Source: Rufibacter immobilis
Lineage (GTDB): Bacteria; Bacteroidota; Bacteroidia; Cytophagales; Hymenobacteraceae
Assembly: GCF_003721565.1 (NCBI RefSeq)
Contig: NZ_RJJE01000002.1
Location: 124,001-188,000 of the forward strand
Reading direction: 5' to 3'
Length of the DNA stretch: 64,000 nt
Shown here: positions 560-63,841 of the stretch, in pieces
Position numbering within the stretch: the first letter of the stretch is position 1
Layout of the letters: every line of letters begins with the position of its first letter
Position numbers and translations under genes: made by a program
Notes under the pieces: generated by a model
Databases searched by the model: none
What the model was told of the DNA's origin: nothing
What the model saw: the letters and a program-made list of their open reading frames with translations, nothing else

Positions 560-607
560 AAAAGCGTTTAGGGGCGCTTTTTGGAAAAAGAGCCCCTAAA
601 CGCTTTT
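560..607. repeat. Extragenic palindrome, copy A
   Basis: Core 564-603 (GCGTTTAGGGGC ... GCCCCTAAACGC) around a TTTTTGGAAAAA centre. The flanks AAAA and TTTT extend the stem. It lies 20 nt past the rnr stop codon and is followed on the minus strand by a T-run, so it may terminate rnr transcription. Confidence 0.9.
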
Positions 608-626
608 CAGGGTGAGCAGCAACCTG

Positions 627-2966
627 CTATTTCTTTACCACATCAATCAGTTCAAGGTCAATGGTACGCTCCAGCACGTTGGCCGCTTTCACTTCCACTA
701 TGACCTCATCCCCGAAGGAAATGATGCGCTTGTTGTTCTGCCCAATGAGGCGATAATTAGCGGCATCAAGCTCATAGAAATCGTCTTGCAGGTCTGCCAG
801 CCGCACCATGCCCTCGCATTTGTTCTCCTCAATCTCCACGTACATGCCCCATTCCGTTAGGCCAGAGACAATGCCTTTGAACTGCTGCCCAAGGAACCCG
901 CTGATGTACTCCACCTGCTTGAACTTGATAGAGGCCCGCTCTGCGTCTGCCGCGCGTTTCTCCATGTCTGAGGAATGCAGACTGCGTTCTTCAAACTCTT
1001 CCTTCTCTGCGGTGAAGTCTTTGTGCTGGTACAGGTCAATGAGGCGGTGGGCCATCATGTCTGGGTACCGCCTGATGGGCGAGGTAAAGTGCGAGTAGTG
1101 CGCAAACGCCAACCCAAAGTGCCCTTCAGCCTCTGTGCTGTATTTGGCTTTGGCCATGGTTCTGATGGCCAGGTTCTGCAATACGCTCTGTTCCGGCTTG
1201 CCTTCAGTTTGGCTGGCCAGTTTGTTCAGTTCCTTGGAGATGTCCTTGCCTTCCTCCAGGTCAACCTTATAGCCGAACTTACGCGCGAACACCGAGAAGT
1301 TCATGAGTTTCTCCGGGTCTGGAGCACCGTGCGTACGGTACACCATGGTCAGTTTCTTGGGCCCTTTCTTGAGCTTGTACACGTGCTCGGCCACGTACTT
1401 GTTGGCCAGCAGCATGAACTCTTCAATGAGCTTGTGCGCGTCTTTGCGTTCTTTCACGTACAGGTGCAGCGGCTTGCCGTTCTCGTCCAGCTTGAATTTT
1501 ACTTCAATGGTCTCAAAGTTCACGGCTCCGTTCTTAAAGCGCTTGTCTTTGAATTTCTTGGCCAGTTCGTTCAGCTTCAGAATCTCCGTGGAGAAATCAC
1601 CCTCGCCGGTTTCAATCACCTGCTGGGCTTCTTCATAGGCAAACCTGCGGTCTGAGTGGATGATGGTGCGGCCAATCCAGTAATCATGGATCTTGGCGTT
1701 TTCATCTATCTCAAACACCACGGAGAACGTGAGTTTGTCTTCATTGGGCCGAAGGGAGCACAACCCGTTAGACAGGCGCTCCGGTAACATAGGAATGGTT
1801 CTGTCTACCAAGTACACAGAGGTGGCTCTGCGGTAGGCTTCTTTCTCCAGTCTGCTGCCCGGGCGCACGTAATGCGTTACGTCTGCAATGTGCACCCCAA
1901 TCTCCCAGTTTCCGTTTTCCAGCTGCTGCACACTCAGGGCATCGTCAAAGTCTTTGGCGTCTGCGGGGTCAATGGTGAAGGTGGTTACGTCTCTGAAGTC
2001 GCGGCGCTTGGCAATTTCCTCTTTGGTAATGCCCTCCGGGATGCTCTCGGCCTCTTTCTCCACCGACTCCGGAAACTCAAACGGCAAGCCAAATTCGGCC
2101 ATGATGGCATGGATCTCAGCGTTGTGTTCTCCGGCCGGGCCGAATACCCTAGTGATCTCTCCCGTAGGATTGCGCTGCGGATCTTCTGGCCACTCGGTCA
2201 CTTTCACCAGTACTTTGTCACCGTGCTTGGCATCGGCTAGGCCGCGTTCACCCACAAACACATCAAAGTACATGCGTTTCATGTCTGGCACCACAAACCC
2301 GAAACCTTTGGACATCTCCAGGCGGCCTACCACTTCCTCACGCTCGCGCTTGAGCACTTCCACTACTTCACCCTCGGGGCGGTCACCTTCGCGGCGGCTG
2401 CGCCGAAGCTGCACCCGCACGGTGTCACCGTCCATGGCAAACCTAAGCCGTTCCACGGGTACGCGTACGTCCTGTTCGCTTTCCTCGCTCACCACATAGG
2501 CATGACGGCCATTGGCTAAATCTACCTTGCCCACAATGGTGGCGCCTCCCCGGCGGGAAAGGAACCCACCACGGTCTGTGTCTCGTCGGCTGCCGCGTTC
2601 CCCGCGGTCATAGCTCTTCTCAGTAGTGCCTTTATAGTCAGGGTTGAAGATATAGGCGTCTTCCTGCAGGTGAACAAGCTCACCGCTTTTGCGCATTTTC
2701 TTCAGGAGGGCGAATACTTCCTCACGTCCTTCTTTGTTGTTGATGCCCAACCGGCGGTGCAGTTGGCGGTAGGTGAACACCTTCTTCGGCTCCCGGCTGA
2801 AAATATTCAAGAGCACTTCTCTGGACACTTCACCGGCATTTACGCCCCGGCCACCACGGCCCGAGGAAGCACTGCTCCTGCGTGGGGCACCTTTGTCTTT
2901 TCTGGTATTACTAGAACGGGGCGCAGAATCTCTGCCTCCACCCGAACCTCTTCTTTTTCTTTCCAT
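627..2966 (-). CDS. rnr: Ribonuclease R
   Basis: 779-residue RNase II/R family 3'-5' exoribonuclease that degrades structured RNA. Order of parts: a basic Gly/Arg/Ser-rich tail (residues 1-45), a winged-helix segment (about 45-105), cold-shock-type RNA-binding domains (about 140-280), and the RNB catalytic domain with DPADAKDFDDA at 333-343, whose aspartates bind the catalytic Mg ions. A C-terminal S1 domain follows (about 690-775, with VSGLTEWGMYVEIEEN). The length fits RNase R rather than RNase II. It starts at ATG 2966. The N-terminal RG-rich tail looks disordered and could bind RNA. Confidence 0.96.
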   Translation of the reverse strand: MERKRRGSGGGRDSAPRSSNTRKDKGAPRRSSASSGRGGRGVNAGEVSREVLLNIFSREPKKVFTYRQLHRRLGINNKEGREEVFALLKKMRKSGELVHLQEDAYIFNPDYKGTTEKSYDRGERGSRRDTDRGGFLSRRGGATIVGKVDLANGRHAYVVSEESEQDVRVPVERLRFAMDGDTVRVQLRRSRREGDRPEGEVVEVLKREREEVVGRLEMSKGFGFVVPDMKRMYFDVFVGERGLADAKHGDKVLVKVTEWPEDPQRNPTGEITRVFGPAGEHNAEIHAIMAEFGLPFEFPESVEKEAESIPEGITKEEIAKRRDFRDVTTFTIDPADAKDFDDALSVQQLENGNWEIGVHIADVTHYVRPGSRLEKEAYRRATSVYLVDRTIPMLPERLSNGLCSLRPNEDKLTFSVVFEIDENAKIHDYWIGRTIIHSDRRFAYEEAQQVIETGEGDFSTEILKLNELAKKFKDKRFKNGAVNFETIEVKFKLDENGKPLHLYVKERKDAHKLIEEFMLLANKYVAEHVYKLKKGPKKLTMVYRTHGAPDPEKLMNFSVFARKFGYKVDLEEGKDISKELNKLASQTEGKPEQSVLQNLAIRTMAKAKYSTEAEGHFGLAFAHYSHFTSPIRRYPDMMAHRLIDLYQHKDFTAEKEEFEERSLHSSDMEKRAADAERASIKFKQVEYISGFLGQQFKGIVSGLTEWGMYVEIEENKCEGMVRLADLQDDFYELDAANYRLIGQNNKRIISFGDEVIVEVKAANVLERTIDLELIDVVKK

Positions 2967-3056
2967 TAATTCTTGTCAAATGTGTGCTGCTCCCATGTTT
3001 GGAAAATAGCACTTGGCGGCAGCTTCTTTTACCACTGCCCAATTTTGTTTAGTTCT

Positions 3057-3076
3057 GCTCCCCTGGCTTGGGGAGC
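3057..3076. terminator. Small GC hairpin upstream of rnr
   Basis: GCTCCCC and GGGGAGC are separated by six bases. It sits between the rnr start and palindrome copy B. On the plus strand it runs into a T-rich stretch, but no plus-strand gene ends here, so its role is unclear. Confidence 0.35.
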
Positions 3077-3088
3077 GGTTTATTTTCT

Positions 3089-3124
3089 GTTTAGCGCCTG
3101 TTTTTGGAAAAACGGCCGCTAAAC
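3089..3124. repeat. Extragenic palindrome, copy B
   Basis: GTTTAGCGCCTGTTTTT, GG, then AAAAACGGCCGCTAAAC. The arms pair with two mismatches (CC opposite a GC-type position). It lies 31 nt beyond the stop of the double ABC ATPase and upstream of rnr. Confidence 0.85.
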
Positions 3125-3155
3125 GCACCTCAAGAAAAGCTGCCTACAAATATAT

Positions 3156-4970: not shown

Positions 4971-5198
4971 ATAAGGTTTGTTTCTGCGTAAGAGGTACTG
5001 TTTGGATGAATATTCCAGATGTAATTCTAAAAGAGTATGGCTCTATCTAAAGACATTCAATAGTTTACCTATCGTATTAAGGTAAGTTAAAAAGCAAAGT
5101 ATATAGAAATCAATCACAGAGACAACCTAAATTCTCAAACCTAAGTATTGTCAGTACTTAACACCCATAATCCCCTTCTTCGGCATTACAGAACTTTT

Positions 5199-5810
5199 AT
5201 GAAACACTTTCACTACTTAAGCACCCTGCTTCTGAAAACAGCTTTAGTAGGGTTCTTCTTCCTATTCTTGCAGCAGAGCGCTTTTGCCCAGCACCGTTAC
5301 CCAAACCACTTCCGTACCGGCGTGGGCTTTGCGTACATCATGGAGGGAGATAACAGTGGAGCCTTGTTCTCCCAGCAATATACCCGCGAACTCACCGACC
5401 ATCTACACTTTACCGTGTCTGCGGAATATCTCAGTTCTTCAAGATATGACCAAACCAGAGAACTCTTCACTTCCAGAAAGGCATTTGTCATGTTTGATGC
5501 CTCTTTGTTTTATGACCTCACGGAAACCGCAAAATATACCATCAAGCTGGGAGTAGGACCTGCCGTGAGAAGACGCTCTGAGCTGGATCTGGTACGGGGA
5601 GAACCTGATGAAGGGGTAGTCACTCCCATCGCTAATTCTGATGATGCTTTCGTGCACATCAGGAAACGTGATATTGGTGGCAAGGTAGTGCTGGAAACAG
5701 ACTTCTTTAATGACAACCGCCTTTTCTTCGGGATGAGGGCTTCCGGTTATGTCTACAACCATGGCACCTCTATCTTTGCGGTAGGCTTAAACATGGGCTA
5801 TTCCTTCTAA
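5199..5810 (+). CDS. Small outer-membrane beta-barrel-like protein, function unknown
   Basis: 203-residue exported protein. The chosen start, MKHFHYLSTLLLK, gives a normal signal peptide ending in QQSAFAQ. The same frame is open upstream from 5148 but those 17 residues do not look like a signal sequence. The mature part has alternating polar and hydrophobic stretches with many aromatic residues and ends in VGLNMGYSF, as in outer-membrane barrels whose last strand ends in Phe. It resembles the small OmpW-like barrels common in Bacteroidota, but I recognise no named family. It faces lspA and the two share a bidirectional terminator. Confidence 0.7.
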   Translation: MKHFHYLSTLLLKTALVGFFFLFLQQSAFAQHRYPNHFRTGVGFAYIMEGDNSGALFSQQYTRELTDHLHFTVSAEYLSSSRYDQTRELFTSRKAFVMFDASLFYDLTETAKYTIKLGVGPAVRRRSELDLVRGEPDEGVVTPIANSDDAFVHIRKRDIGGKVVLETDFFNDNRLFFGMRASGYVYNHGTSIFAVGLNMGYSF

Positions 5811-5837
5811 TTCCTTACATCACCTACATACGTCCAT

Positions 5838-5879
5838 AAAAAGATGGGGCGGCTCAAATTTGAGCCGCCCCATCTTTTT
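5838..5879. terminator. Bidirectional terminator between the barrel gene and lspA
   Basis: Perfect inverted repeat with 21-bp arms and no spacer, centred on AAATTT (AAGATGGGGCGGCTC on the left, its complement on the right). T-runs are present on both strands. Its right end overlaps the lspA stop codon (5878-5880). Confidence 0.88.
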
Positions 5880-6495
5880 ATGCCTCTACAATATTAATTT
5901 CGTGCTTTTCCTTGGCCGGTGGTGGATTCAGGAATTTGTTCTGGTTAAAAATGATGATCAGGACTCCCATGAAAATGGCTGCATCTGCCACGTTGAAGAT
6001 TGGCCAAAGTGACATAGGCGTACCGCCGATGATGGGAATCCAGTTAGGTACAATACCTTCCCAGATATCAATGTAGAACATGTCTATCACCTGACCGTGC
6101 AGCCAGGGAGTAGACACGCCATAAGGGGCATTGTCTAACAAAACCCCGTAGAAAATACTATCAATCAGGTTACCAACAGCGCCGCCCAGAATCAGACCCA
6201 CGCACCAGATCAATCCTTTGTGGTAACGGTGCTGCACCAGGTAGTAGACCAAATACCCAATGGCTACCATAGCCACCATTCTAAACACGGTAAGGATGAT
6301 CTTGCCGTAATCTGAGCCCAGTTCCACGCCGAAGGCCATGCCGGGGTTCAGGGTGTAATGCAGCTTAAACCAATCCCCGAATACCGGAATCTGTCCGGGC
6401 ATCCCCATCTGCATGTTATTGTGCACCAGCATCTTCACGACCTGGTCAACAATGATTACCAACACGGCAACCAGATAGTATTTTGTGTACTTCAT
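5878..6495 (-). CDS. lspA: Lipoprotein signal peptidase (signal peptidase II)
   Basis: 205-residue inner-membrane aspartyl protease that removes the signal peptide of prolipoproteins after lipid attachment. Four hydrophobic segments are visible. Catalytic aspartates are Asp112 in GNLID and Asp171 in FNVAD. The insertion between them (about residues 115-160) makes the protein longer than E. coli LspA (about 164 residues), which is usual in Bacteroidota. It lies downstream of ileS in the same direction, the classic ileS-lspA order, but 98 nt apart with a palindrome between. Several lipoprotein genes in this window would be its substrates. Confidence 0.96.
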   Translation of the reverse strand: MKYTKYYLVAVLVIIVDQVVKMLVHNNMQMGMPGQIPVFGDWFKLHYTLNPGMAFGVELGSDYGKIILTVFRMVAMVAIGYLVYYLVQHRYHKGLIWCVGLILGGAVGNLIDSIFYGVLLDNAPYGVSTPWLHGQVIDMFYIDIWEGIVPNWIPIIGGTPMSLWPIFNVADAAIFMGVLIIIFNQNKFLNPPPAKEKHEINIVEA

Positions 6496-6508
6496 GATAG
6501 TGGTTTAG

Positions 6509-6558
6509 CCTTTGCGTTTAGCGCCTGTTTTTGGAAAAAAAGGCGCTAAACGCAAAGG
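6509..6558. repeat. Extragenic palindrome, copy C
   Basis: The stem CCTTTGCGTTTAGCGCC pairs with GGCGCTAAACGCAAAGG around a T/A-rich centre. The outer CCTTTGC extension is shared only with copy R. It lies between the ileS stop and the lspA start, so it may weaken read-through from ileS into lspA. Confidence 0.9.
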
Positions 6559-6593
6559 CGGTCAATCTTCATTTCTCTCCCGAAAGGGCGGGT

Positions 6594-9500
6594 TTATCTG
6601 GCCACTTCTAAACGGACCGGCAAACTGAATCCTTCCATGTCCAGCACGGCGGCTTCTGCATCCGCTAAGGACTGCACCAGGGTTAGTTCTACCGCCTGTA
6701 CTTCTTCCGCGATGTAGGCTCCAAAAGCTTGAACGGCGGCGGCTACTTCTGCATTGTCCTCCTGCAGGAACACTCTGATCTTATCCTGCACATCTAGGCC
6801 GCTGTCTTTGCGGAGGTTTTGCAGGCGGTTCACCAGTTCGCGCGCCATGCCTTCCAGACGAAGTTCCTCGGTGATGGTAATGTCCAGCGCCACAGTCAAC
6901 GCTCCTTCCGAAGCCACCAACCAACCCGGGATATCCTCAGACATGATTTCTACGTCTTCGCGGCTGAGCACGGTCGTGTCATCTTCCACCGGAATCTCGA
7001 AGAAACCTTCACGCTCCATCTTGGCAATGTCTTCCTGGCTCATCTGCTGGATTTGGGCGGCCACCAACTTCAGCTTCGGACCGAACACCTGGCCCAGACG
7101 CTTGAAGTTAGGTTTGATCTTCTTCACCAGGATGCCGGTGGTGTCTTCCAGGTACTCCAGGCTTTTCACGTTCACCTCAGACAAAATCAGATCTTCCACG
7201 GCTTGCAGCTGCGTCTTCATCTTCTCATCTAAGATCGGAATCAGGATACGGCCCAGCGGCTGACGCACTTTAATCATGTGCTTCTTCCGGAGCGAGTGCA
7301 CCAAAGAAGACACGCTCTGTGCCAACTGCATGCGTTGCTCTAGATCTACGTCAATCAAATCTTCCTCTACTTGCGGGAAAGATTCCAAATGGATAGACTC
7401 GGCTTTACTGCGGCCACTCACTTGGTTCAGATCCAGGAACAGGCGGTCCATGTAGAACGGCGCAATCGGTGAAGCCAGTTTAGCTACCGTTTCCAAGCAA
7501 GTATATAACGTTTGATAAGCCGCCTGCTTGTCCTGGTTCAGTTCGCCTTTCCAGAAACGTTTACGGTTGAGGCGCACGTACCAATTGCTCAGCTCATCGG
7601 CCACAAAGTCCTGAATGGCGCGGGCGGCTTTGGTTGGGTCGTAGTCGTCAAAGTACGCGCCCACTTCTTTCACCAGCGTATTCAGGCGGGAGATGATCCA
7701 GCGGTCACTTTCGGTGCGTTGCGCTACCGGGATTTCTGCTCCCTCAAACGTGAAGCCGTCCAGGTTGGCGTACAGCGCGAAGAACGAGTATGTATTCTGC
7801 AGTGTCCCGAAGAACCGACGCTGTACCTCGGTGACGCCATCAATATTGAATTTGAGGTTATCCCAAGGTGGCGCGTTCACGATCATGTACCAACGGGTGG
7901 CATCGGGACCGAAGCGGCCGATGGTCTCAAACGGATCTACGGCGTTGCCGAGGCGCTTGCTCATCTTGTTGCCGTTCTTGTCCAGCACCAGGCCGTTCGC
8001 AATGACGTTCTTGAACGCCACGCTGTCTTCCAGCATCACGGCCAGGGCGTGCAGGGTGAAGAACCAACCCCGGGTCTGGTCCACGCCCTCAGCGATGAAG
8101 TCAGCCGGGAAGTTGGCTTTGAACGTCTCCTGATTCTCAAACGGGTAGTGCCACTGGGCGTACGGCATGGCGCCGGAGTCAAACCACACGTCAATGAGGT
8201 CGGTCTCGCGCTTCATGGGTTTGCCGCTCGGGCTTACCAGGATGATGTTGTCTACGTACGGACGGTGCAGGTCAAAACCTTCGTAGTTGAAATCAGTGAT
8301 GCCCAGTTCAGCCCGAGGCTCCTCGGTACCGGTTGGGCTCAAGGCAAACTCACCGGCAAATTCCAGTAAGGTGTTGGCCTCATGCTCGTCTTTGGTGCCA
8401 GTGTTAGTAGTGCCTTTCGCGGACTTGCGCAATGGGTTCTCCGTCATCACGCCGGCAGCAATGCTGCGCTCGATTTCACGGTCCAGCTCGGCCACAGAGC
8501 CGATGCAGATTTCCTCGTCGCCTTCCTCTGTGCGCCAGATAGGCAGCGGCGTTCCCCAGTAGCGCGAGCGCGACAGGTTCCAGTCTACCAGGTTCTCCAA
8601 CCAGTTCCCGAAACGGCCCGATCCGGTTGACTCCGGTTTCCAGTTGATGGTTTTGTTCAGGTCAATCAACCGCTGCTTCACCGCGGTGGTCTTGATGAAC
8701 CAGGCATCCAGCGGGTAATAGAGAATCGGTTTATCGGTGCGCCAGGAGTGCGGGTAGGTGTGCTCGTACTTCTCTACCTTGAAGGCCTTGTTCTCTTCCT
8801 TCAGGATGATGGAGATGATGACATCCGTGGTTTTGTAATCCGGGTGGCTTTCATCTTCATTCGTGTAATTCTTCACGTAGAAGTCATCGGGCCCAAGCGG
8901 CTTGTGGGTTTTGATGTTATACTTCTGTACGCCTTCCTGCAGCCTTACCCCAATCTCATGGATGAACTTTCCTCTGCGGTCAACCGTGGGGAGTTCATTG
9001 CCCAATTCGTCTTTGATGGTGAGGGCTGGGATGCCGTGTTGCTTGGCTACCCTAAAGTCATCGGCCCCGAAGGTTGGGGACGTATGCACTACGCCGGTAC
9101 CATCCTCGGTGGTCACGAAATCTCCGGCCACCACCTGGAACGCTTTGTCTGCATCGTAGAACGGCTGCAGATACGGCATCAGTTGCTCGTACCGAAGTCC
9201 CACCAATTGCTTCCCGGTAAACTCCTGCACCATCTCGAAAGGAATGGCTTTGTCTCCGGGTTTGTAGTCAGTAAGCTGCAGGTCTTTGTTCTTCTCAGAG
9301 AAATATTTTCCAACCAGCGCTTTCGCCAGCACCACACTCACCGGCTGGTGGGTGTACGGATTGAAGGTATTTACCTGCACATAGGTAATCTTGTCGCCAA
9401 CGGCCAGAGCGGTGTTGGAGGGCAAGGTCCAGGGAGTGGTGGTCCAGGCCAGGATGAAGACATCGCCGGAAGGCTGCGCGAAAAGAAATTCTGAAGCAGA

Positions 9501-10151
9501 ATTCTTGATCACTTTAAACTGCGCCACGATGGACGTATCCTTTACTTCTTTGTAGCAGCCCGGCTGGTTCAACTCGTGGGAGCTGAGTCCGGTGCCGTCT
9601 GAAGGCGAGTACGGCTGAATGGTGTAACCTTTGTAGAGGTAGCCCTTATCATAGAGTTTCCGGAGCAAGGCCCAGTTGGATTCTATATATTGGTTGTCAA
9701 AGGTGATGTACGGTTTGTCCAGGTCCACCCAGTACCCCATGCGCTCAGTTAAGTCATCCCACTGGTGCTTGAAGCGCATCACGGTCTCGCGGCAACGGGC
9801 ATTGTACTCCTCCACCGAGATGGTCTTCCCGATGTCGTCTTTGATAATGCCCAGTTCTTTCTCTACCTGCAACTCAATGGGCAAACCGTGAGTATCCCAG
9901 CCACCTTTGCGGACTACCTGGAAACCTTGCAGCGTTTTGTAGCGGCAGAAAATGTCTTTCACGGCACGGGCCATCACGTGGTGAATACCCGGTGCGCCGT
10001 TGGCCGAAGGTGGTCCCTCATAAAACACAAAGGTAGGCTGACCCGCACGGGTCTCCACCGATTTCTCAAAGATGCGGTTCTCTTTCCAGTAGGCTCTCAC
10101 CTCTTCGGCCAGACCCGCATAGTCCAGTTGCTTATACTCGTTGTACTTCAC
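6594..10151 (-). CDS. ileS: Isoleucine--tRNA ligase
   Basis: 1185-residue class Ia aminoacyl-tRNA synthetase. The HIGH-type motif is GIHH at 55-58, inside GPPSANGAPGIHH, and KMSKR is at 729-733. The editing (CP1) domain lies between them and the anticodon-binding region follows. The C-terminal part lacks an obvious zinc-binding cysteine cluster, consistent with the longer eukaryote-like type of IleRS. Residues about 575-625 are a low-complexity stretch rich in Thr, Gly and Glu, between conserved parts of the catalytic core (see findings). Start at ATG 10151. A TAACTTTG box lies 145 nt upstream. Confidence 0.97.
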   Translation of the reverse strand: MKYNEYKQLDYAGLAEEVRAYWKENRIFEKSVETRAGQPTFVFYEGPPSANGAPGIHHVMARAVKDIFCRYKTLQGFQVVRKGGWDTHGLPIELQVEKELGIIKDDIGKTISVEEYNARCRETVMRFKHQWDDLTERMGYWVDLDKPYITFDNQYIESNWALLRKLYDKGYLYKGYTIQPYSPSDGTGLSSHELNQPGCYKEVKDTSIVAQFKVIKNSASEFLFAQPSGDVFILAWTTTPWTLPSNTALAVGDKITYVQVNTFNPYTHQPVSVVLAKALVGKYFSEKNKDLQLTDYKPGDKAIPFEMVQEFTGKQLVGLRYEQLMPYLQPFYDADKAFQVVAGDFVTTEDGTGVVHTSPTFGADDFRVAKQHGIPALTIKDELGNELPTVDRRGKFIHEIGVRLQEGVQKYNIKTHKPLGPDDFYVKNYTNEDESHPDYKTTDVIISIILKEENKAFKVEKYEHTYPHSWRTDKPILYYPLDAWFIKTTAVKQRLIDLNKTINWKPESTGSGRFGNWLENLVDWNLSRSRYWGTPLPIWRTEEGDEEICIGSVAELDREIERSIAAGVMTENPLRKSAKGTTNTGTKDEHEANTLLEFAGEFALSPTGTEEPRAELGITDFNYEGFDLHRPYVDNIILVSPSGKPMKRETDLIDVWFDSGAMPYAQWHYPFENQETFKANFPADFIAEGVDQTRGWFFTLHALAVMLEDSVAFKNVIANGLVLDKNGNKMSKRLGNAVDPFETIGRFGPDATRWYMIVNAPPWDNLKFNIDGVTEVQRRFFGTLQNTYSFFALYANLDGFTFEGAEIPVAQRTESDRWIISRLNTLVKEVGAYFDDYDPTKAARAIQDFVADELSNWYVRLNRKRFWKGELNQDKQAAYQTLYTCLETVAKLASPIAPFYMDRLFLDLNQVSGRSKAESIHLESFPQVEEDLIDVDLEQRMQLAQSVSSLVHSLRKKHMIKVRQPLGRILIPILDEKMKTQLQAVEDLILSEVNVKSLEYLEDTTGILVKKIKPNFKRLGQVFGPKLKLVAAQIQQMSQEDIAKMEREGFFEIPVEDDTTVLSREDVEIMSEDIPGWLVASEGALTVALDITITEELRLEGMARELVNRLQNLRKDSGLDVQDKIRVFLQEDNAEVAAAVQAFGAYIAEEVQAVELTLVQSLADAEAAVLDMEGFSLPVRLEVAR

Positions 10152-10295
10152 CTTATTGTTTGTAGGATGTGGTAGGTGTTACTCTATATTAATATGCAGT
10201 AAGGCCAGAAACCAAATGGAACCGCCCCCGGCAGATACTTGCAAAAGCGTAGGACCGCAAAATACGACCTATGTAGCTCTCTTCGCTCCTTTTAG

Positions 10296-10303
10296 CAAAG
10301 TTA
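10296..10303 (-). promoter_or_regulatory. Possible ileS promoter -7 box
   Basis: On the minus strand it reads TAACTTTG, matching the Bacteroidota -7 consensus TAnnTTTG. No clear -33 TTTG was found at the usual spacing. Confidence 0.4.
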
Positions 10304-10330
10304 AGCAATAAAAACTTGAGTACAGGTTTT

Positions 10331-10390
10331 CAGCGCTTTTCCGTTTAGCGGCTGTTTTTCTAAAAACAGCCGCTAAACGGAAAAGCGCTG
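10331..10390. repeat. Extragenic palindrome, copy D, 29-bp perfect arms
   Basis: The longest copy. Arms 10331-10359 and 10362-10390 are exact reverse complements, with only CT between them. The core (CCGTTTAGCGGCTGTTTTT) matches the family, and the outer CAGCGCTTTT is specific to this locus yet perfectly mirrored. It lies upstream of both flanking genes, so it is not simply a gene-end terminator. Confidence 0.95.
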
Positions 10391-10482
10391 ATGTATGGTT
10401 GTTCATGGCTAGTAGTAGGCGCTGTAGTTACTGCCTGTGCCAAGCGGCAATTACTGTTCTTCAGGTAAGTGGATAACCGCAC

Positions 10483-10519
10483 GTTTAGCGGCCGTTTTTC
10501 TGAAAACAGCTCCAAAACA
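10483..10519. repeat. Palindrome-family element, copy E, one arm divergent
   Basis: The left arm GTTTAGCGGCCGTTTTT is intact. The right arm reads GAAAACAGCTCCAAAAC, not its complement. It belongs to the asymmetric subfamily described in the findings. It lies 92 nt from copy D. Confidence 0.75.
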
Positions 10520-10643
10520 GGAAAATCATTTTTTCACTGGATAACTTCAGGAAAAATAGGGCAGGTATGATTCTTAGGCGGATTTTGTGTTGTACGGCTT
10601 CGCTTTCTTTGTTTCTTTGCCGCTACATTTTTCCACCAAAACT

Positions 10644-11732
10644 ATGACTTCTACCAAAATCGCCTCTGTACGTTATCAACCATTGAATTTACCCTTGATT
10701 GAGCCCTTCGCCATTGCCACGGGCACGCAATACCAAGTAGAAAATGTGGTGGTGCAGATCACCTTGGAAGACGGAACCCTTGGCTTGGGCGAGGCAGCCC
10801 CCTTCCCCGCGGTGAGCGGCGAGACGCAGCAAAGCACCCTGGCCATGCTGGGCGAACTGGAGAAGCACCTGCTACAGAAAGATGTGAAAAGCTGGCGCAC
10901 TCTGGCTAAAGAACTGGAGCAATTGGCTCCCCAGGCACCCGCAGCCCGGTGCGGTCTGGAGATGGCAATCTTGGATGCGCTCTGCAAACATTACCAGATG
11001 CCGCTCTACGTGTTCTTCGGGGGGGTGCAGACAGAACTGAAAACCGACCTCACCATCACCGCCGGCGACGAGGCCCATGCAGCCGCCTCTGCCAGGTCAA
11101 TCGTGGAACGTGGCTTCTCTGTTATAAAGGTGAAGACCGAAGGAGTAGATGTGGATTATGACTTGCGTCGTTTGCAGGCAATTCACAAAGCGGCGCCGGG
11201 GACAAAACTGATTGTAGACGGAAACTGCGGCTATAATCTGGCCCGGGCGCAAGACTTTGTCAACAGAGCTACCGAAGCCGAAATCCCGGTTATTTTACTG
11301 GAACAGCCGCTTCCGCGCGAATCCTGGGAAGACCTGGCAGTGTTGGCAACGAACTGCCCTTTCCCCATCGCCGCCGATGAATCTGCGCGCGGTGCCCAGG
11401 ATGTTTCACGATTAGCGCAGGACCGAAGTGCCTCGGTTGTCAACATAAAATTGATGAAGTGCGGAGTGTTGGAAGCTATGCAGATGGCGGCGCTGGCTCA
11501 GGTGCACGGCCTAGGGCTCATGATTGGCGGAATGGTGGAGAGCATTTTGGCCATGACTTTCTCGGCGCATTTCGCGGCAGGCGTTGGCGGATTTGAGTAC
11601 ATAGATCTGGATACTCCTTTATTTATAAGAGAACATCCGTTCAAAGGTGGCTTCACCCAAACAGGTGAACTCCTGCAACTGAATCCCACAATAGCGGGGC
11701 ACGGGGTGAGTTTGACTTCTCCCCTACCCTAA
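10644..11732 (+). CDS. Enolase-superfamily dipeptide epimerase (L-Ala-D/L-Glu type)
   Basis: 362 residues from ATG 10644. The frame is open further upstream, but MTSTKIASVRYQP is where the family N-terminus begins. The muconate-lactonizing/epimerase fold is shown by the VIKVKTE lysine motif, metal ligands in IVDGNCGY, LLEQPL and AADES, and the second catalytic lysine in NIKLMK. These support racemisation at a carbon next to a carboxylate. The C-terminal DLDTPLFIREHPFKGGF stretch is typical of the L-Ala-D/L-Glu epimerases used in murein peptide recycling. o-Succinylbenzoate synthase (MenC) is the main alternative, but no menaquinone genes are nearby. Confidence 0.82.
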   Translation: MTSTKIASVRYQPLNLPLIEPFAIATGTQYQVENVVVQITLEDGTLGLGEAAPFPAVSGETQQSTLAMLGELEKHLLQKDVKSWRTLAKELEQLAPQAPAARCGLEMAILDALCKHYQMPLYVFFGGVQTELKTDLTITAGDEAHAAASARSIVERGFSVIKVKTEGVDVDYDLRRLQAIHKAAPGTKLIVDGNCGYNLARAQDFVNRATEAEIPVILLEQPLPRESWEDLAVLATNCPFPIAADESARGAQDVSRLAQDRSASVVNIKLMKCGVLEAMQMAALAQVHGLGLMIGGMVESILAMTFSAHFAAGVGGFEYIDLDTPLFIREHPFKGGFTQTGELLQLNPTIAGHGVSLTSPLP

Positions 11733-11753: not shown

Positions 11754-11799
11754 CGGGCGTTTAGGGGCTCTTTTTTGAAAAACAGCCCCTAAACGCCCG
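11754..11799. repeat. Extragenic palindrome, copy F
   Basis: CGGGCGTTTAGGGGCT pairs with AGCCCCTAAACGCCCG around a T/A centre. The CGGGC extension is specific to this copy. It lies 22 nt after the epimerase stop codon. Confidence 0.9.
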
Positions 11800-11869: not shown

Positions 11870-11910
11870 AACAAAAAAGGCTCTCCTGTAGCAGGAGAGC
11901 CTTTTTTGTT
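11870..11910. terminator. Bidirectional terminator, epimerase / glyS
   Basis: 19-bp perfect arms (AACAAAAAAGGCTCTCCTG and its complement) with a 3-nt loop. T-runs are present on both strands, between convergent genes. Confidence 0.88.
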
Positions 11911-11916
11911 ATTTCT

Positions 11917-11953
11917 GTTTTGGGCTTTATTTCAGAAAAAGAGCCGCTAAACG
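11917..11953. repeat. Palindrome-family element, copy G, one arm divergent
   Basis: The right arm GAAAAAGAGCCGCTAAAC is intact and continues GCA. The left arm reads GTTTTGGGCTTTATTT. It is a member of the asymmetric subfamily, directly beyond the glyS stop codon. Confidence 0.7.
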
Positions 11954-11959
11954 CACAGT

Positions 11960-13456: not shown

Positions 13457-13460
13457 GGCG

Positions 13461-13468
13461 CAAATATA
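13461..13468 (-). promoter_or_regulatory. Possible glyS -7 promoter box next to the start codon
   Basis: On the minus strand it reads TATATTTG, matching TAnnTTTG, and ends 5 nt before ATG. If used, the transcript would start at or near the start codon. Confidence 0.4.
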
Positions 13469-13662: not shown

Positions 13663-13670
13663 TACTTTTG
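13663..13670 (+). promoter_or_regulatory. Possible promoter of the phosphate transporter gene
   Basis: TACTTTTG matches the Bacteroidota -7 box, 29 nt before the ATG. There is no obvious -33 TTTG. Confidence 0.45.
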
Positions 13671-16168: not shown

Positions 16169-16351
16169 AGTTTCAAATGATTATATGGTGGTCCGTTTCC
16201 GGCTTTGTTTTCCTAAAACTACTCAAAAATTGCGGTTCTTCCACATTGTACACCTGTTTGGGGCCTGCCTAAAAAATTTGCGCCGCGCCCCAGCTCCCCC
16301 TTTCTCTTTTCTGATCTGCGCGCTTTTCCCACTTTTCCACGAAGTCAACTT

Positions 16352-21147: not shown

Positions 21148-21164
21148 AGTGTGGATTAATGTGG

Positions 21165-22081: not shown

Positions 22082-25000
22082 CTAATAACCTAATCGCTTA
22101 TAATAAGCATCTACTTGCTTTTTATAATAAGGTGTCAAAGCAGGTAGGTTCTGACGGAGCGATTCTGTCTGCTGTTTCTGGCGTTCCTGGTACTTCTGTA
22201 ACGAAGGCGGGATACGAGCGGGCAAATCTTTGGCGGTATTGGCCTCTCGTTTCTCATCCAGATCACGTTCATTGGCAGCTTTCTCAGCCTGTAATAAGCG
22301 CGTCAGAATCTCTTTCTGCCGCATCATTGTCTGCTCCGTGAGACGTTTATTAACGAGATCAGTTTCGGTTTGTTCCATGAGCTTGTTCAAATTGCTTAGT
22401 TTCTCGCCGCCTTCCTTTCCGCCTGGGGAGGTAGGCGATGGAGCCAAGTCTTTCATGGCATTTCTGAGCATTTCCTGTTGGGCTGCCAAACGGGCCAATT
22501 GCTCAGACAATTCTTTGCCGCTTTTCCCGCTCTGCTGTAACTGCTGTATCTGCTGATTGAGCTGCTGTTGCATTTGGCCCAATGCCCCCGGCAGATTCTT
22601 CCCGCTCTGGCCCTTCCCTTTCTTCTTGCCTGGCCCGCTCTGTTGTGCCGCCATCATGGCTTGCTGCATTTGCTTCTGCACATCACTCAGCATTAACGCC
22701 AGGTTGTTCATAGAGGTCATAGCCAGTTGCTGGTGCGTACCGGTTTTGGAAAGATTACGGTCTTTGATAGACTCAGAGCTTTTGCTCATTTCTTCTTCCA
22801 TGGCCCCTACCTCACGGGTCACGAATGACTGAATCTGGATTACCCGCTTGGCCAATGAGAGCAGGCTGTCTTCAATGATTTTGGCGTCATCAGACAACTT
22901 GAGTTGCTGTTGGGCTAATCCAATGAATCTGGGATCACTTTGCTGCACGTTCCGGAAGTCTTTCATCAGTTTCTCCTGATCAAAAGATAAGGTAACCAGG
23001 TTCTCCAGAATGTCGCGGAGATGGTCCAGGTTCTGCTGCATCTGCTGCATGTCTCCGCTCATTTCCTGGCTCTGCATTTGCTGGGACATTTGCTGCATTT
23101 TCTGCGCCGCCGATTTCTGCTGCTGGCTCGCTTTTTTGTTCTGGCCTTTCTGCATAGATTCCTGCGCATTCTGCTGCTCCTGCTCTATCTGCTCTTCTAA
23201 CTGCTCAGTGTTGGGCATGTCTTCTGGGTGCTCCAGTTGCTCATTCATCTGTTCGGCCTCCTTGAGGTCTTCCTGCATTTGCTTGAATTCCTCTTGCAGT
23301 TGTTTCTGTTCCTGCTGCAGGCTCTGGTCTGCTTTGTCTTTCTGCTGGGCTGTCTGGTTGGCTAGCTCTTCCTGTTTCTTGGCCAGATCATCTAGCTTCT
23401 GCATAGCGTTCTCCAGTTTCTGTTCTGCCTGTAGCTGCTTGAAAAGTTCCAGTAGTCGGTCTAACTCTTTCTGAAGGTTCTCTTCCTTGTTATTGAGCTT
23501 GTCTAACAGCGGCTGAATCTGGGCGGGATTTGGCTCTTTCTGCTGCAGAAGCTTCTCCAGTTCCTCATAGAGCTTCTTGGTTTCATCGTCCAGCAGTTGG
23601 TCCATCATTTTCTGGAGCTGCTCGCGTTTAGCGGCCATTTTTTCGTTTTGAGGCGAAAAACGCTCCTGTTGTTGGTTTAGCTGCTCGTTCATCTTCTGCA
23701 GGGCTGCCAGGTCTTCCTGCAAGGCTTTCTTCTTTTCTGTCAGTTCCTGCAGGGCTTTCTTGTCTTGGTAAGACAATTCGCGTTTCAGTTTGGTCTTCTC
23801 TTCATTTCTCTCCAGTGACTTCTGCAACTCCTCTGCTTTGGTAAGGGAAGATTTCATCTGTGACTGCACCTGCTGGGAGGTCTCCTCAATGGACTTTTGC
23901 AGTTCAGAGGGGTCTGGGTACTTGAAGAGGAAGGTAGAAGTGCGGGCGCTCTTAGGTTGGGGCACCTGATCATTATCACTTACCTGCACGTAGTACTCCA
24001 GCTTATCGCCGGGCTGCAGGTTGAAAGGTTTCAGGTTGAGCTGCTGGAAATAGGATTGGGTGGCCAGGGAGCCGTTGAAAGGGATGGCCACAGTTCTGTA
24101 ACCCGATGTAGAGTTGTTTCCCTTCAGCACGCGGTAATGGAGCGCTAGCCTGCTGAATCCATAGTCATCTGAGATGGTTCCTCCTACCACCAGGTAAGAA
24201 TACAGAACTGAATCTTTGAACTGCTCCAGCGTAATTTCTGGGGCTCGGTCTGGAACAACCGTAATCTGGTGCGAGATTTCCTCCTTATTCTCGCTGTAGC
24301 GATTACGGAGATGCATGCTATAGCGCTGGTTCTGCATAAACGTGCGTGTGACCACAAACCCGTCTTCCCGGGCCTCTGCTTTTACTTTCTGTGCGGGAGC
24401 GTCAAACTGTAACCAAAGGGAATCAGCATTGTCAGCGGCTAAGTGCCAAGTCACCTGAGTTCCTTCTGGGATGGTGAGGTCACCGGTGTTGTCCAGCACC
24501 TCGGCTGGTTTGCGCAGATAAGATGGGTACTTCAGCTCTGCCTTCAACTGCCGAAGGGCAGGCCTGGCTACCACTGTTAAGCGGCTGGGTTTAGAGTAGA
24601 AGCCAGCACCGGCCAACTGAAAATCCACCGATTCCTGCACCTGCTGAAATTCATAGACGTAGGTCTGCCCTTTTCCTTTTTTAAGAGGTACTTCCTGCCC
24701 ATCCAGCACCAAGGCCACTTCTTCGGGCACCGATTTTCCTTTGATTGCAACCTCCAATTGAAAATCCTCGCCCTTGAAGGCTTGCAGGCTTGAATTTTGG
24801 ATAACAAACTCAAACGGCGCCTCGGGAGCATAATGCGTCTTGAAGTTGATGATGCGCTCAGTTCCCTTCACAAACAGAGCCGGATAGATGAAGGCCAGGA
24901 TGAGCACCAGTGAGAGCGGCAACAGCAGGTATTTGAAGTAAGATCTGTTCTGGGTGAATTTGATCCGCTCAGGGAATTTATAGGAAGCCAGTTCGCCAGA

Positions 25001-25402: not shown

Positions 25403-25560
25403 ACGGGTAAATAGGGTTAGTAGAAGTATTGGGATTAGGAAGCAAGGGTAGGCGAAGCCTTTCCCCTTCTGTTCCTCCTATACGTAATTGAAGATTAGAA
25501 TATTAACTCTTCTGCTTACTAATTTATTGTTATTTCTTAGATAAGAGCCTGCCTGCTCCT

Positions 25561-25596
25561 GGTTTTGCCTCAAATTAGGAAAAAGAGCCCCTAAAC
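25561..25596. repeat. Palindrome-family element, copy I, one arm divergent
   Basis: The right arm AAAAAGAGCCCCTAAAC is intact. The left arm reads GTTTTGCCTCAAATTA. Asymmetric subfamily. Confidence 0.65.
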
Positions 25597-25667
25597 GCGC
25601 TTTGAGTTGCTAGTAAACAAAGAGCCGAACCAGAAATTGCTAGGTATTTACAACGGTTCTAAAAGAA

Positions 25668-25715
25668 AATTGCGTTTAGCGGCTCTTTTTGGAAAAATAG
25701 CCGCTAAACGCAATT
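25668..25715. repeat. Extragenic palindrome, copy J
   Basis: AATTGCGTTTAGCGGC pairs with GCCGCTAAACGCAATT around a T/A centre with one arm mismatch. The outer AATT is mirrored and specific to this copy. It lies 19 nt beyond the exonuclease III stop. Confidence 0.9.
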
Positions 25716-26924: not shown

Positions 26925-26978
26925 AAGATTCCTGTTTAGGGGCTGTTTTTAGAAAAACAGCCCCTAAACAGGAATCTT
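26925..26978. repeat. Extragenic palindrome, copy K, 26-bp perfect arms
   Basis: Arms 26925-26950 and 26953-26978 are exact complements with AG between. The core GTTTAGGGGCTGTTTTT is extended by locus-specific AAGATTCCT on one side and its complement on the other. It lies 17 nt beyond the stop of the AhpD-like gene. Confidence 0.95.
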
Positions 26979-33616: not shown

Positions 33617-33666
33617 AAGTTTGTTCCAGGCTTGCTTCTATGAAGCAGGTCTGGAACAAACTTTTT
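33617..33666 (+). terminator. Terminator of the AsmA-like gene
   Basis: AAGTTTGTTCCAG pairs with CTGGAACAAACTT, with an inner stem GCTTC/GAAGC and a T-run. It lies 17 nt after the stop. Confidence 0.85.
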
Positions 33667-34597: not shown

Positions 34598-34606
34598 TTA
34601 TGATCT

Positions 34607-34643
34607 GTTTTTGCCCAGTTTTCAGAAAAAGGGCCGCTAAACG
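34607..34643. repeat. Palindrome-family element, copy L, one arm divergent
   Basis: The right arm GAAAAAGGGCCGCTAAAC is near-intact. The left arm reads GTTTTTGCCCAGTTTT. Asymmetric subfamily, 7 nt beyond the DinB stop. Confidence 0.7.
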
Positions 34644-34649
34644 CACTTA

Positions 34650-43063: not shown

Positions 43064-43114
43064 CTTAAAACGAAGAAGCCCCCTCTGTATAAGAGGGGGC
43101 TTCTTCGTTTTAAG
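43064..43114. terminator. Bidirectional terminator, Sus operon / fumC
   Basis: 23-bp perfect arms (CTTAAAACGAAGAAGCCCC at the start) around GTATA, with T-rich ends on both strands. Confidence 0.88.
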
Positions 43115-43141
43115 CATGTTTTTGCCAAATCAGGTCAAAAC
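43107..43141. repeat. Possible decayed palindrome-family element, copy M
   Basis: TTTTTGCCAAATCAGGTCAAAAC resembles the divergent arm of copy N (TTTTTCCCAAATCAGGCG). Neither arm is intact, so assignment is weak. It overlaps the terminator end. Confidence 0.35.
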
Positions 43142-43146
43142 CGGAA

Positions 43147-44598: not shown

Positions 44599-44628
44599 AA
44601 AACGGGCGACTGACTAGCCACCCGTTTT
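44599..44628 (-). terminator. Terminator after the GHL10 gene
   Basis: AAAACGGG and CCCGTTTT flank a partly paired 14-nt region, 52 nt beyond the stop of the GHL10 gene, with T-rich flanks on the minus strand. Confidence 0.6.
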
Positions 44629-44659
44629 ACGCCTGATTTGGGAAAAAGGCCGTCTAAAC
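44624..44659. repeat. Palindrome-family element, copy N, one arm divergent
   Basis: The right arm is GAAAAAGGCCGTCTAAAC, itself with changes. The left arm reads GTTTTACGCCTGATTT. Asymmetric subfamily, 21 nt from the GHL10 stop. Confidence 0.55.
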
Positions 44660-44679
44660 GGCTTAAGAAGCTTCCTTCT

Positions 44680-46221: not shown

Positions 46222-46306
46222 AGCGGAGGAAAAGGGTTAGTAACTCTGAAAGAGCAAATAACCGCCTTCCGCCTAGCTCTGCAAGTTTTATTTGGATTAG
46301 CTTCCT

Positions 46307-46342
46307 GTTTAGGGCCCGATTTTGGAAAAACAGCCCCTAAAC
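46307..46342. repeat. Extragenic palindrome, copy O
   Basis: GTTTAGGGCCCGATTTT, GG, then AAAAACAGCCCCTAAAC. The left arm has a few changes. It lies 13 nt beyond the dipeptidase stop. Confidence 0.8.
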
Positions 46343-46355
46343 GCAAACCGAACGC

Positions 46356-47236: not shown

Positions 47237-47312
47237 GTAACTGATGCGTAAAGGCCGGAGCAACGGGCCGGTGCCCACTCATCGCCTTGACAACTTATAT
47301 GCTCTTAAAGCC

Positions 47313-47347
47313 GTTTAGCGGCTCTTTTTCCCAAAACAGGCTCAAAC
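47313..47347. repeat. Palindrome-family element, copy P, one arm divergent
   Basis: The left arm GTTTAGCGGCTCTTTTT is intact. The right arm reads CCAAAACAGGCTCAAAC. Asymmetric subfamily, in a divergent promoter region. Confidence 0.75.
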
Positions 47348-47468
47348 CAGAAACAACTCTCTGCGCCTTCGGGCCGGGAATAGCCAATTGCTAATATAAA
47401 TATTTGCGCCTAAACAGACAGGTAAATATTTTCCTTACCTTCAAGGATAAGTAACGGTTCTACAGACG

Positions 47469-47503
47469 GTTTATGCTTAATTTTAGAAAAAGAGCCGCTA
47501 AAC
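47469..47503. repeat. Palindrome-family element, copy Q, one arm divergent
   Basis: The right arm GAAAAAGAGCCGCTAAAC is intact and continues GCAC. The left arm reads GTTTATGCTTAATTTT. Same divergent region as copy P but in inverted orientation. Confidence 0.7.
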
Positions 47504-47602
47504 GCACCTGGGGCCGCCTGTTAAAAACAGGACAATCTGTAAGAAAAGACCCGTTTGCACTACCAATAGAACGCCAAAAGACCCCTTTATTCCCGTAATA
47601 CC

Positions 47603-50527: not shown

Positions 50528-50577
50528 CCTTTGCGTTTAGGGGCTGTTTTTCCAAAAATAGCCCCTAAACGCAAAGG
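50528..50577. repeat. Extragenic palindrome, copy R
   Basis: CCTTTGCGTTTAGGGGCT pairs with AGCCCCTAAACGCAAAGG apart from one mismatch (T opposite G-position). The CCTTTGC extension matches copy C. It follows directly after a separate terminator, so a terminator role would be redundant. Confidence 0.93.
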
Positions 50578-56252: not shown

Positions 56253-56373
56253 CTCAAAACCGGGAGAACTACTACCTCTGAAAGTAAATATAATAATATT
56301 TAGCTAAAACTATATTTAACCGTTTAAGAATCTTAGGGAGAGCAGTAGAATTCCTTCTAACAATAGGTAGTGC

Positions 56374-56409
56374 GTTTAGGGGCTCTTTTTCCAAAAACAA
56401 GCCCTAAAC
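56374..56409. repeat. Extragenic palindrome, copy S
   Basis: GTTTAGGGGCTCTTTTT, CC, then AAAAACAAGCCCTAAAC. One base is shifted in the right arm. It lies 43 nt beyond the GT-C gene stop. Confidence 0.85.
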
Positions 56410-56452
56410 AGAATGGCCATGATAAGTGAGCGAAGCCCGTGAAGCGGCTAGT

Positions 56453-59627: not shown

Positions 59628-59667
59628 GCGTTTAGCGCCTGTTTTTGGCAAAAGAGCCCCTAAACGC
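59628..59667. repeat. Extragenic palindrome, copy T
   Basis: GCGTTTAGCGCCTGTTTTT, GG, then CAAAAGAGCCCCTAAACGC. It ends on the last base of the SRPBCC stop codon and lies upstream of the desaturase gene. Confidence 0.85.
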
Positions 59668-61013: not shown

Positions 61014-61015
61014 CC

Positions 61016-61051
61016 GTTTAGTGGCTCTTTTTCCAAAAACGGCCCCTAAAC
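61016..61051. repeat. Extragenic palindrome, copy U
   Basis: GTTTAGTGGCTCTTTTT, CC, then AAAAACGGCCCCTAAAC. It lies between convergent genes. Confidence 0.85.
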
Positions 61052-61093
61052 ATAAGGAAGCTTTGATTTCTCTTAAATTTTAAGTAAGTTTTG

Positions 61094-62969: not shown

Positions 62970-63183
62970 GATGGTGGAGATAAGGTTATAGTGATTTTAT
63001 AGATGACCCGGCCATGAAGGATTTGGTTGCAAGCCAATCAAAATAAATAAAAGACTGCAACTCCGTATTTAATATTAGCAAGAGCCGGTTTATTAAATAT
63101 GAAGCATTCAGATTATTCTCAAAGCGGGGCATCTTCCTTTATCTCTTTCTTTATTTTATTCTTTTCACTTTAAATTAACGATT

Positions 63184-63240
63184 AGTATAAACGACGGCGG
63201 AGGCCGTCGGCCGAAGCTGACTTTTATACAGTGTTATGTG
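63184..63240. repeat. attC-like structured element 2
   Basis: GTATAAA at 63185-63191 pairs with TTTATAC near 63223. Between them lies GACGGCGGAGGCCGTC, and GGCCGTCGGCCGAAG at 63202-63216, then TTTATACAGTGTTATGTG to 63240. The last 15 nt are mirrored at 63661-63676 on the other side of the gene at 63244. Confidence 0.5.
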
Positions 63241-63243
63241 TTG

Positions 63244-63642
63244 TTATTTTTCTTTTTTAAATTTTATACCTCTTTCGAAAAGACACGCTTTTGCATCATT
63301 TCTCACTGATTTATCTTCATGATTTACAAATTCTAATACCAACTGTAAATCTTCATCTTGCCCAATCACACATAAAACTTGAATCGCAGTTCTAATCATT
63401 ACATGATTGTCGATTTCTAATGACTTCAATGCAACTGTTCTGGCTCTTTCATAAAACTTTTCGATTGTTTCTGCACGCTCGTCAATAAAATTTTCCAGAT
63501 AATGCAAATCACTTTCGGCGTAACTAGGTTTTTCCCAAGTGAATCTTTCTCCATGAGGTCCATTGCAAATAAACCAATGCCATACTGGGTCACTAGGGTC
63601 CTCGGCTAATGAAAGAGGCGGGTGAGTGCCATATAAAGCCAT
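63244..63642 (-). CDS. Small protein with HEAT-like C-terminus, in a cassette-like setting
   Basis: 132 residues, soluble, with no signal peptide. The N-terminal half has WHWFICNGPHGERFTWEKPS and an acidic middle. The C-terminal half looks like HEAT-type helical repeats: NHVMIRTAIQVLCVIGQDEDLQLVLEFVNHEDKSVRNDAKACLFERG. No family name. It is flanked by inverted copies of a 15-16-bp word, ATACAGNTGTTATGTG, at 63226 and 63661, consistent with a mobile cassette. Confidence 0.65.
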   Translation of the reverse strand: MALYGTHPPLSLAEDPSDPVWHWFICNGPHGERFTWEKPSYAESDLHYLENFIDERAETIEKFYERARTVALKSLEIDNHVMIRTAIQVLCVIGQDEDLQLVLEFVNHEDKSVRNDAKACLFERGIKFKKEK

Positions 63643-63660
63643 TTCTTAATTTTTTAATTA

Positions 63661-63676
63661 CACATAACATCTGTAT
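63661..63676 (-). repeat. Inverted partner of the cassette end
   Basis: On the minus strand it reads ATACAGATGTTATGTG, matching the plus-strand ATACAGTGTTATGTG at 63226-63240 with one extra base. Confidence 0.5.
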
Positions 63677-63803
63677 ATCTGCACCGGTACATTTATTTTC
63701 AATATATCTCTTATAAAACATCCTTTTATCCCTTGAAATCAGCAAATAACAGGAATCGCACTATCTAATATAATAAATAGCTACCATTTAAGGAAGTGCC
63801 TCC

Positions 63804-63841
63804 CGTTTAGGGGCTCTTTTTAGAAAAATAGCCCCTAAACG
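63804..63841. repeat. Extragenic palindrome, copy V
   Basis: CGTTTAGGGGCTCTTTTT, AG, then AAAAATAGCCCCTAAACG. The arms match apart from one base. It ends 1 nt before the SNF2 helicase stop codon. Confidence 0.9.

Follow-up and report, generated by a model that had tools for sequence, protein, structure and literature searches.

Old sites with new spellings: in-place rewriting of a genus-wide extragenic palindrome as a possible source of species dialects in Rufibacter

How short dispersed repeats of bacteria stay alike is an old question, to which transposition, gene conversion and selection have each been offered as an answer; for repetitive extragenic palindromes (REPs), gene conversion was reportedly suggested by Higgins in 1988. 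The question is raised again by a stretch of 64,000 nucleotides from Rufibacter immobilis (assembly GCF_003721565.1, contig NZ_RJJE01000002.1, positions 124,001 to 188,000; hereafter the window), in which a palindrome of about 40 bp recurs between the genes. Here, site and sequence can be told apart, because the sites are common to 16 species while the spellings differ, with some lineages homogenized and others not. The reading that we favor, and hold to be somewhat probable, is that these are old, genus-wide, REP-like extragenic palindromes which in some lineages are kept alike by copying in place (ectopic gene conversion, molecular drive). Rewriting of the copies in place is itself well supported by the comparisons below; the repair mechanism behind it we infer.

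A palindrome family with shared sites and species-specific spelling

The original prediction counted at least 22 copies, and a 40-position covariance model (E ≤ 0.1) finds 24 distinct elements in the window, which include all 20 that it had located as well as four others at 16193, 23624, 33621 and 43105; the model was trained on 62 elements of the genus, those at 10341, 10481 and 11757 of the window among them. A simple arm pattern (at most 3 mismatches) occurs 37 times in the window, where 1.94 matches are expected and the maximum of 100 shuffles was 6, and 1588 + 1581 times (~3,170) in the whole R. immobilis genome, as against 47 + 54 for the reversed pattern. Both arms lie within 2 mismatches of one uniform spelling in 12 of the 24 window elements, and the remainder combine a uniform with a divergent arm or are degenerate (Table 1). 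A position matrix applied to 864 kb of R. immobilis (18% of 4.77 Mb) picks out 387 elements, 17 of them inside strongly coding genes, so that the claim of a genome-dispersed, extragenic family holds; if this sample is typical, the genome would contain about 2,100 elements by extrapolation. The reversed sequence of the window and of the first of the two 400-kb stretches sampled beside it gave zero matrix matches. A dispersed, short, mostly extragenic palindrome with more than 100 copies is also a trait of REPtrons.

The family appears to belong to the genus. A genus matrix finds it in all 15 Rufibacter congeners at 0.36–0.70 elements per kb (11–80 kb per congener), and finds zero elements in 15 non-genus genomes (400 kb combined). 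A covariance scan of whole genomes scored at most 112 candidates in each under stricter filters; 111–112 of these were matches in the 16 genus genomes, counts that are saturated and are not copy numbers, versus 0–2 in each of 43 non-genus genomes (at least one in 9), where weak families may go undetected under such filters. The spelling of R. immobilis itself (at most 2 mismatches) occurs 1403 + 1396 times in its own genome and 16 to 525 times on the forward strand of the 15 congeners, and outside the genus it stays near the reversed control, somewhat higher in genome G016. A scan of the window against Rfam gave no match at gathering score. Titles and abstract beginnings in the literature gave no account of the family, and the words Rufibacter and Hymenobacter are absent from the main text of PMC12306157. 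In two other genomes of the order another palindrome recurs, AAACCTATAAGGTTT together with its mirror (L177:11740-11772, L177:12172-12204 and L169:13797-13828).

The positions of the elements are largely shared. The window is syntenic with five congeners at 78–80% mean DNA identity, congeners overall being 74–81% identical. Where a gap of the window holds an element, the orthologous gap is filled in 115 of 116 comparisons across the 15 congeners, and offsets from 85 single-element comparisons agree to within 20 nt in 93% (median difference 2). Counted for individual elements, 179 of 194 comparisons between the window and the congeners are shared; in each of the remaining 15 the congener has a stretch of equal length at that place (37–40 versus 40 nt, and once 168 versus 165), leaving no empty site among the 194; 12 of these 15 come from two coding matches, at 18305 (which crosses a gene start) and 23624. 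At 6490–6593 the element stands at the same offset (38–40) in all 15 congeners, in an anchored span of 118–138 nt versus 133 nt in R. immobilis, each species with its own letters. Given shared sites without empty ones, no new insertion is seen in the R. immobilis lineage, and the sites are mostly older than the divergence of the species compared. As for the species themselves, the IleRS tree places R. immobilis beside G010; an ileS segment was apparently exchanged recently between the two, and we therefore draw no conclusion from this branch. Positions 5116–11654 of the window are 88% identical to G010 (other long blocks 66–85%; the non-coding stretch 10300–10590 exceeds 90% by eye), which looks like a recent exchange between both lineages.

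These comparisons bear directly on classical amplification, in which bursts of REP or miniature inverted-repeat transposable element (MITE) subfamilies are inserted by a REP-associated tyrosine transposase (RAYT) or another transposase. We consider this very improbable and largely refuted already. Size, copy number and placement at gene ends are REP-like, and PF01797, the one transposase family covered by our search, is found in 15 of the 16 genomes. However, the ten PF01797 loci have 17 family matches in 32.7 kb (0.52 per kb), an ordinary density: copies lie on both sides of the gene in L089, L091 and L096, and L095 and L097 have no family match. A uniform set of elements is carried even by congener G006, in which PF01797 has no match, and neither a GTAG tag (0.027 versus 0.041 in the control) nor a CGTC tag (0.010 versus 0.028) is enriched at the element ends. 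Mobility of the TnpA_REP/RAYT type, implied by the original prediction, is therefore not borne out, as sites are shared genus-wide, unlike scattered insertions; its comparison of the placement with REPs and bacterial interspersed mosaic elements (BIMEs) stands. According to the sections of PMC3733652 available to us, REP/BIME sequences of enterobacteria and pseudomonads are likewise high-copy palindromes of 20–40 bp at convergent or same-direction 3' ends, some of them in genes, forming homo- and heterodimers; the Rufibacter family differs in having no GTAG or CGTC tag and apparently no special link to RAYT genes, and in its genus-shared sites with one spelling per species. CGTC-tagged REPs, which the same sections report from Bacteroidetes among others, resemble it in having no dedicated transposase and differ in the tag itself. 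Should transposition replace elements that already stand at a site, it would itself amount to rewriting in place.

The PF01797 genes have other neighbors, which we record as a separate observation. Short palindromes of other kinds stand beside these genes in L092, L095, L097, L098 and L096 (1200-1420, by eye), including GGGATT..AATCCC and GGAAGT..ACTTCC types (L096:1200-1420, L092, L095, L097), and are perhaps the own REP families of the RAYT-like genes of Rufibacter.

While the sites are shared, the letters are not. The uniform spelling is GTTTAGSGGCTNTTTTT in R. immobilis and GTTTTCGGGCTCATTT in congener G012, whose uniform arm, CCGTTTTCGGGCTCATTTC, is perfect across 16 positions in 107 of 346 arms. 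Over 36 positions, the mean distance between copies within and between species is 9.1 and 13.4 in R. immobilis (23 window copies), 7.8 and 13.1 in G012, 7.7 and 12.4 in G013, 8.6 and 12.5 in G006, and 8.5 and 11.9 in G001. The nearest copy belongs to the same species for 19% of 370 copies, compared with 7.7% (maximum 10.8%) in 50 permutations of the labels. Since the sites are shared and the letters lineage-specific, the pattern points to overwriting in place and not to insertion.

Gene ends and the two arms

Genes were called with our own script based on open reading frames (ORFs) and hexamers, with approximate starts, and congener genes except those of G012 were called with the R. immobilis codon model. 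On these calls, 15 of the 24 window elements lie within 50 nt of a stop codon, in line with the original prediction; a sixteenth, at 25672, is 24 nt from a stop and was excluded solely for a weak, probably spurious covering ORF. Among gaps of at least 70 nt in R. immobilis, elements occupy 84 of 103 convergent (82%), 158 of 279 same-direction and 43 of 118 divergent ones. The corresponding counts are 32 of 41, 97 of 161 and 22 of 44 in G012, and 29 of 39, 88 of 136 and 13 of 44 in five decayed congeners pooled. A median of 50 nt separates element and upstream stop in the same-direction gaps of R. immobilis. The original prediction placed no copy inside a gene, which does not hold for an arm at 23626, within the 1106-aa gene 22082–25402. 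Strongly coding genes contain 7 of the 192 matrix matches of G012 and 18 of the 188 from the five decayed congeners, and part of the 17 in R. immobilis is probably chance.

Such placement could suggest terminators, or hairpins that stabilize 3' mRNA ends, whose likeness would come from function alone. We find this highly improbable, although convergent gaps are so often filled, symmetric copies fold strongly, and 14 predicted terminators overlapped an element (these were left out of the terminator count). The unit consists of GC-GTTT..GGC.T.TTTT, a loop of 2–4 nt and the mirror arm, and its T and A runs lie within the hairpin, the reverse of canonical R. immobilis terminators (e.g., 11870–11910). 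Intrinsic terminators are also hairpins close to gene ends, but no T run follows the element (per-position T fraction 0.07–0.37), separate canonical A-stem-T terminators share the same gaps in no fixed order, and more than a third of divergent gaps are occupied. Function alone would also leave one spelling per species unexplained.

The arms themselves differ in state. Of the 387 copies in R. immobilis, 173 have two uniform arms and 157 are asymmetric, pairing a uniform arm, GCGTTTAGCGGCTCTTTTTCC, with a divergent one. Over 213 copies, both arms are uniform in 94, one in 102 and neither in 17; 290 of their 426 arms differ from the spelling at no more than 2 positions, and a smaller second mode, at about 4–7 mismatches, resembles the congeners. 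In a 464-kb sample, copies with two uniform arms fold at a mean of -22.7 kcal/mol (94 copies), and those with one at -8.6 kcal/mol (102 copies). Across the 62 genus elements the helix covaries, with 118 cells changed on both sides versus 63.5 in shuffled data and 15–53 with slid partners. In copies with two uniform arms, complementarity reaches 4 nt further out (0.74, 0.72, 0.60, 0.51), which it does not in asymmetric ones, and this suggests that copying also takes place between the two arms of one element. One idea that has lost ground is that asymmetric copies have one converted and one ancestral arm, with arms switching independently, since the divergent arms carry lineage-specific letters too.

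Another explanation is a trans-acting protein for which the arms serve as DNA half-sites (or the hairpin as an RNA target); selection for its present specificity would make the sites converge, and dialects would follow changes in the protein. This is unlikely in our view. It would fit the placement at 3' ends, the sequence constraint on arms even without pairing, as in the weakly folding asymmetric copies, and the orientation of these copies, in which transcription meets the uniform arm before the other in 69 of 105 cases (p 0.0017). Nine congeners, however, retain the sites without a single spelling, and selection for an extragenic function would not predict changes inside genes such as those in TilS described below.

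Own-spelling arms inside genes

If sequences are copied in place, look-alike stretches of coding DNA might be overwritten as well. Arms in the spelling of R. immobilis (at most 1 mismatch) occur 8 times in 675 kb of its coding DNA versus 0 times in 878 kb of 14 congeners, and at up to 2 mismatches 15 times versus 3, the reversed control giving 0 versus 3 (binomial p about 0.001 for each threshold). The 15 arms make up 14 places; those at 242484 (with 242503) and 290178 may precede the true start codons, and omitting them leaves 6 versus 0 at the stricter threshold. In TilS, an Arg common to 15 of 15 congeners is Ala in R. immobilis, creating an own-spelling arm, and about 110 codons earlier Leu/Gln has become Arg, Gln/Leu has become Ser, and a Glu of all 15 congeners has become Gln, again with an own-spelling arm as the result. 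The window's DUF4175 gene has Ala in R. immobilis at a position that is Glu in 13 of 13 congeners. A hybrid two-component gene looks element-like in its R. immobilis copy, and not in the seven orthologs and three likely paralogs compared. The in-frame element of the gene 20020–23577 varies by species, and the G012 version carries G012's CTCATTTC (by eye). A partner arm is recognizable by eye at every compared in-gene site.

Rewriting within genes would also be predicted if the arm were an uptake sequence, with preferential uptake and transformation spreading one spelling through the population and giving species dialects. Uniform arms number 527 in 864 kb, near the density of DNA uptake sequences (DUS) and of the uptake signal sequences (USS) of Pasteurellaceae, which is roughly one per kb, and the motif could be the entire palindrome. 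The DUS of Neisseriaceae have species dialects, intergenic inverted pairs and some copies in genes, as described in parts of PMC3630211. The Rufibacter unit, unlike DUS and USS, is a two-arm palindrome that is seldom in genes, as the 17 matches in strong genes indicate. An uptake motif would also be expected to stand alone, and hardly any arm does: the partner scores below threshold for 25 of 446 uniform arms, and the 10 inspected keep a degenerate partner. We therefore regard uptake as improbable.

Homology-directed copying could instead start from the hairpin. The palindrome would fold out into a hairpin or cruciform; once this is cut, or replication stalls at it, repair would copy one or both arms from another element. 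Homology would stop at the element edge, and about 17–40 bp would hence be overwritten. Such copying would explain why sites are shared and each lineage has one spelling, and also the copies uniform in a single arm, the in-gene cases and the partner arm. The process may be active now or recently in R. immobilis, G012, G006/G013 and G001, and weak or lapsed elsewhere, with copies drifting, and any benefit to the host (3'-end RNA, supercoiling) would be secondary. More tentatively, though we think it quite plausible, about 2,000 palindromes may have been overwritten by homology-directed copying, together with look-alike coding DNA and conserved residues, by which a species would gain a genome-wide spelling without insertion. 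Proteins would then also be rewritten as a side effect, provided that the in-gene cases stand up. A retron or other PF00078 reverse transcriptase was considered as the source of the template and dropped, there being no PF00078 match in R. immobilis and 6 of the 15 congeners.

Several observations weigh against copying in place. Conversion is itself deduced from sequence comparison, and slow point mutation with selection for one spelling could also be at work, given the divergence between congeners. A concerted signal is weak in G005 and G007 and absent in 9 of 15 congeners (G002, G003, G004, G008, G009, G010, G011, G014 and G015), which we take as decay, and to which samples of 11–80 kb and a matrix partly built from R. 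immobilis strings could contribute. The distribution of arm mismatches is graded in G012, and in the larger R. immobilis sample the dip is shallow (85, 40, 46, 46, 51 and 32 arms at 2 to 7 mismatches). In asymmetric copies the divergent arm has lineage-specific letters as well (position 4 is G in 0.46, versus 0.02–0.11 in congeners). Sites are not wholly fixed: 57 of 152 own-empty window gaps carry an element in a congener, and pooling every pair of species gives 1504 shared elements out of 1815 that could be mapped. Losses, decay or gains of sites do occur, and some sites have been lost or decayed in R. immobilis or arose elsewhere. L096 is the sole PF01797 gene of R. immobilis, and on each side of it a family copy lies at a distance of about 270 nt. 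Within genes, 6 of the 15 arms were compared with orthologs, the site at 284066 is partly common to G010 and uninformative, and REPs inside genes are known elsewhere (sections of PMC3733652). Genes of G012, R. immobilis and 13 others contain, respectively, 0, 0 and 0 arms of the G012 spelling when 1 mismatch is allowed and 2, 0 and 2 when 2 are; with no excess in its own genes, G012 was set aside as a second case of in-gene rewriting. The DUF4175 site is not extreme on its own, since at least two own-only changes at conserved columns are found in 1038 of 24107 coding windows, and this test was discarded for it.

Elements and other sequences of the window

The 24 elements are collected in Table 1. 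The stretch at 16193–16232, which is kept near letter-for-letter and has no dialect, is perhaps protected by another function.

Table 1. Palindrome elements of the window
Position	Feature	Basis or comparison
564..603	Element, both arms uniform	Arm pattern and covariance model
3087..3126	Element, both arms uniform (1 mismatch each)	Filled at the orthologous position in 14 of 15 congeners, by other spellings
6514..6553	Element, both arms uniform (1 mismatch each)	Filled at the orthologous position in all 15 congeners
10341..10380	Element, both arms uniform, divergent gap, 30-bp perfect arms	Covariance model
10481..10520	Element, one uniform arm, one divergent (3 mismatches)	Arm pattern and covariance model
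11757..11796	Element, both arms uniform, convergent gap, near canonical terminator 11870–11910	Covariance model
11915..11954	Asymmetric element, right arm uniform	Covariance model
16193..16232	Weak family match, non-uniform spelling, nearly unchanged in ten congeners	Covariance model
23624..23663	Element-like stretch inside gene 22082–25402	One arm uniform here, in none of 13 congeners compared
25559..25598	Asymmetric element, right arm uniform	Covariance model
25672..25711	Element, both arms uniform	Arm pattern and covariance model
26932..26971	Element, both arms uniform, 26-bp perfect arms	Covariance model
33621..33659	Degenerate element	Covariance model
34605..34644	Asymmetric element adjoining terminator-like hairpin 34551–34597	Covariance model
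43105..43144	Degenerate element	Covariance model
44622..44661	Degenerate element	Covariance model
46305..46344	Element, one arm uniform, other at 3 mismatches	Arm pattern and covariance model
47311..47350	Asymmetric element, left arm uniform, divergent gap	Covariance model
47466..47505	Asymmetric element, right arm uniform, divergent gap	Covariance model
50533..50572	Element, both arms uniform	Arm pattern and covariance model
56372..56411	Element, both arms uniform (0 and 2 mismatches)	Arm pattern and covariance model
59628..59667	Element, both arms uniform (1 mismatch each)	Arm pattern and covariance model
61014..61053	Element, both arms uniform (1 mismatch each)	Arm pattern and covariance model
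63803..63842	Element, both arms uniform	Arm pattern and covariance model

Two further sequences of the window lie outside the family. At 5835–5882 there is a loopless perfect palindrome with 24-bp arms, of another family, which overlaps the end of the gene 5878–6495 by five bases. The element-free, non-coding gap at 13457–13699, upstream of the glycine--tRNA ligase gene, has an anchored span of 271–273 nt in 10 of 14 congeners and is possibly a conserved leader.

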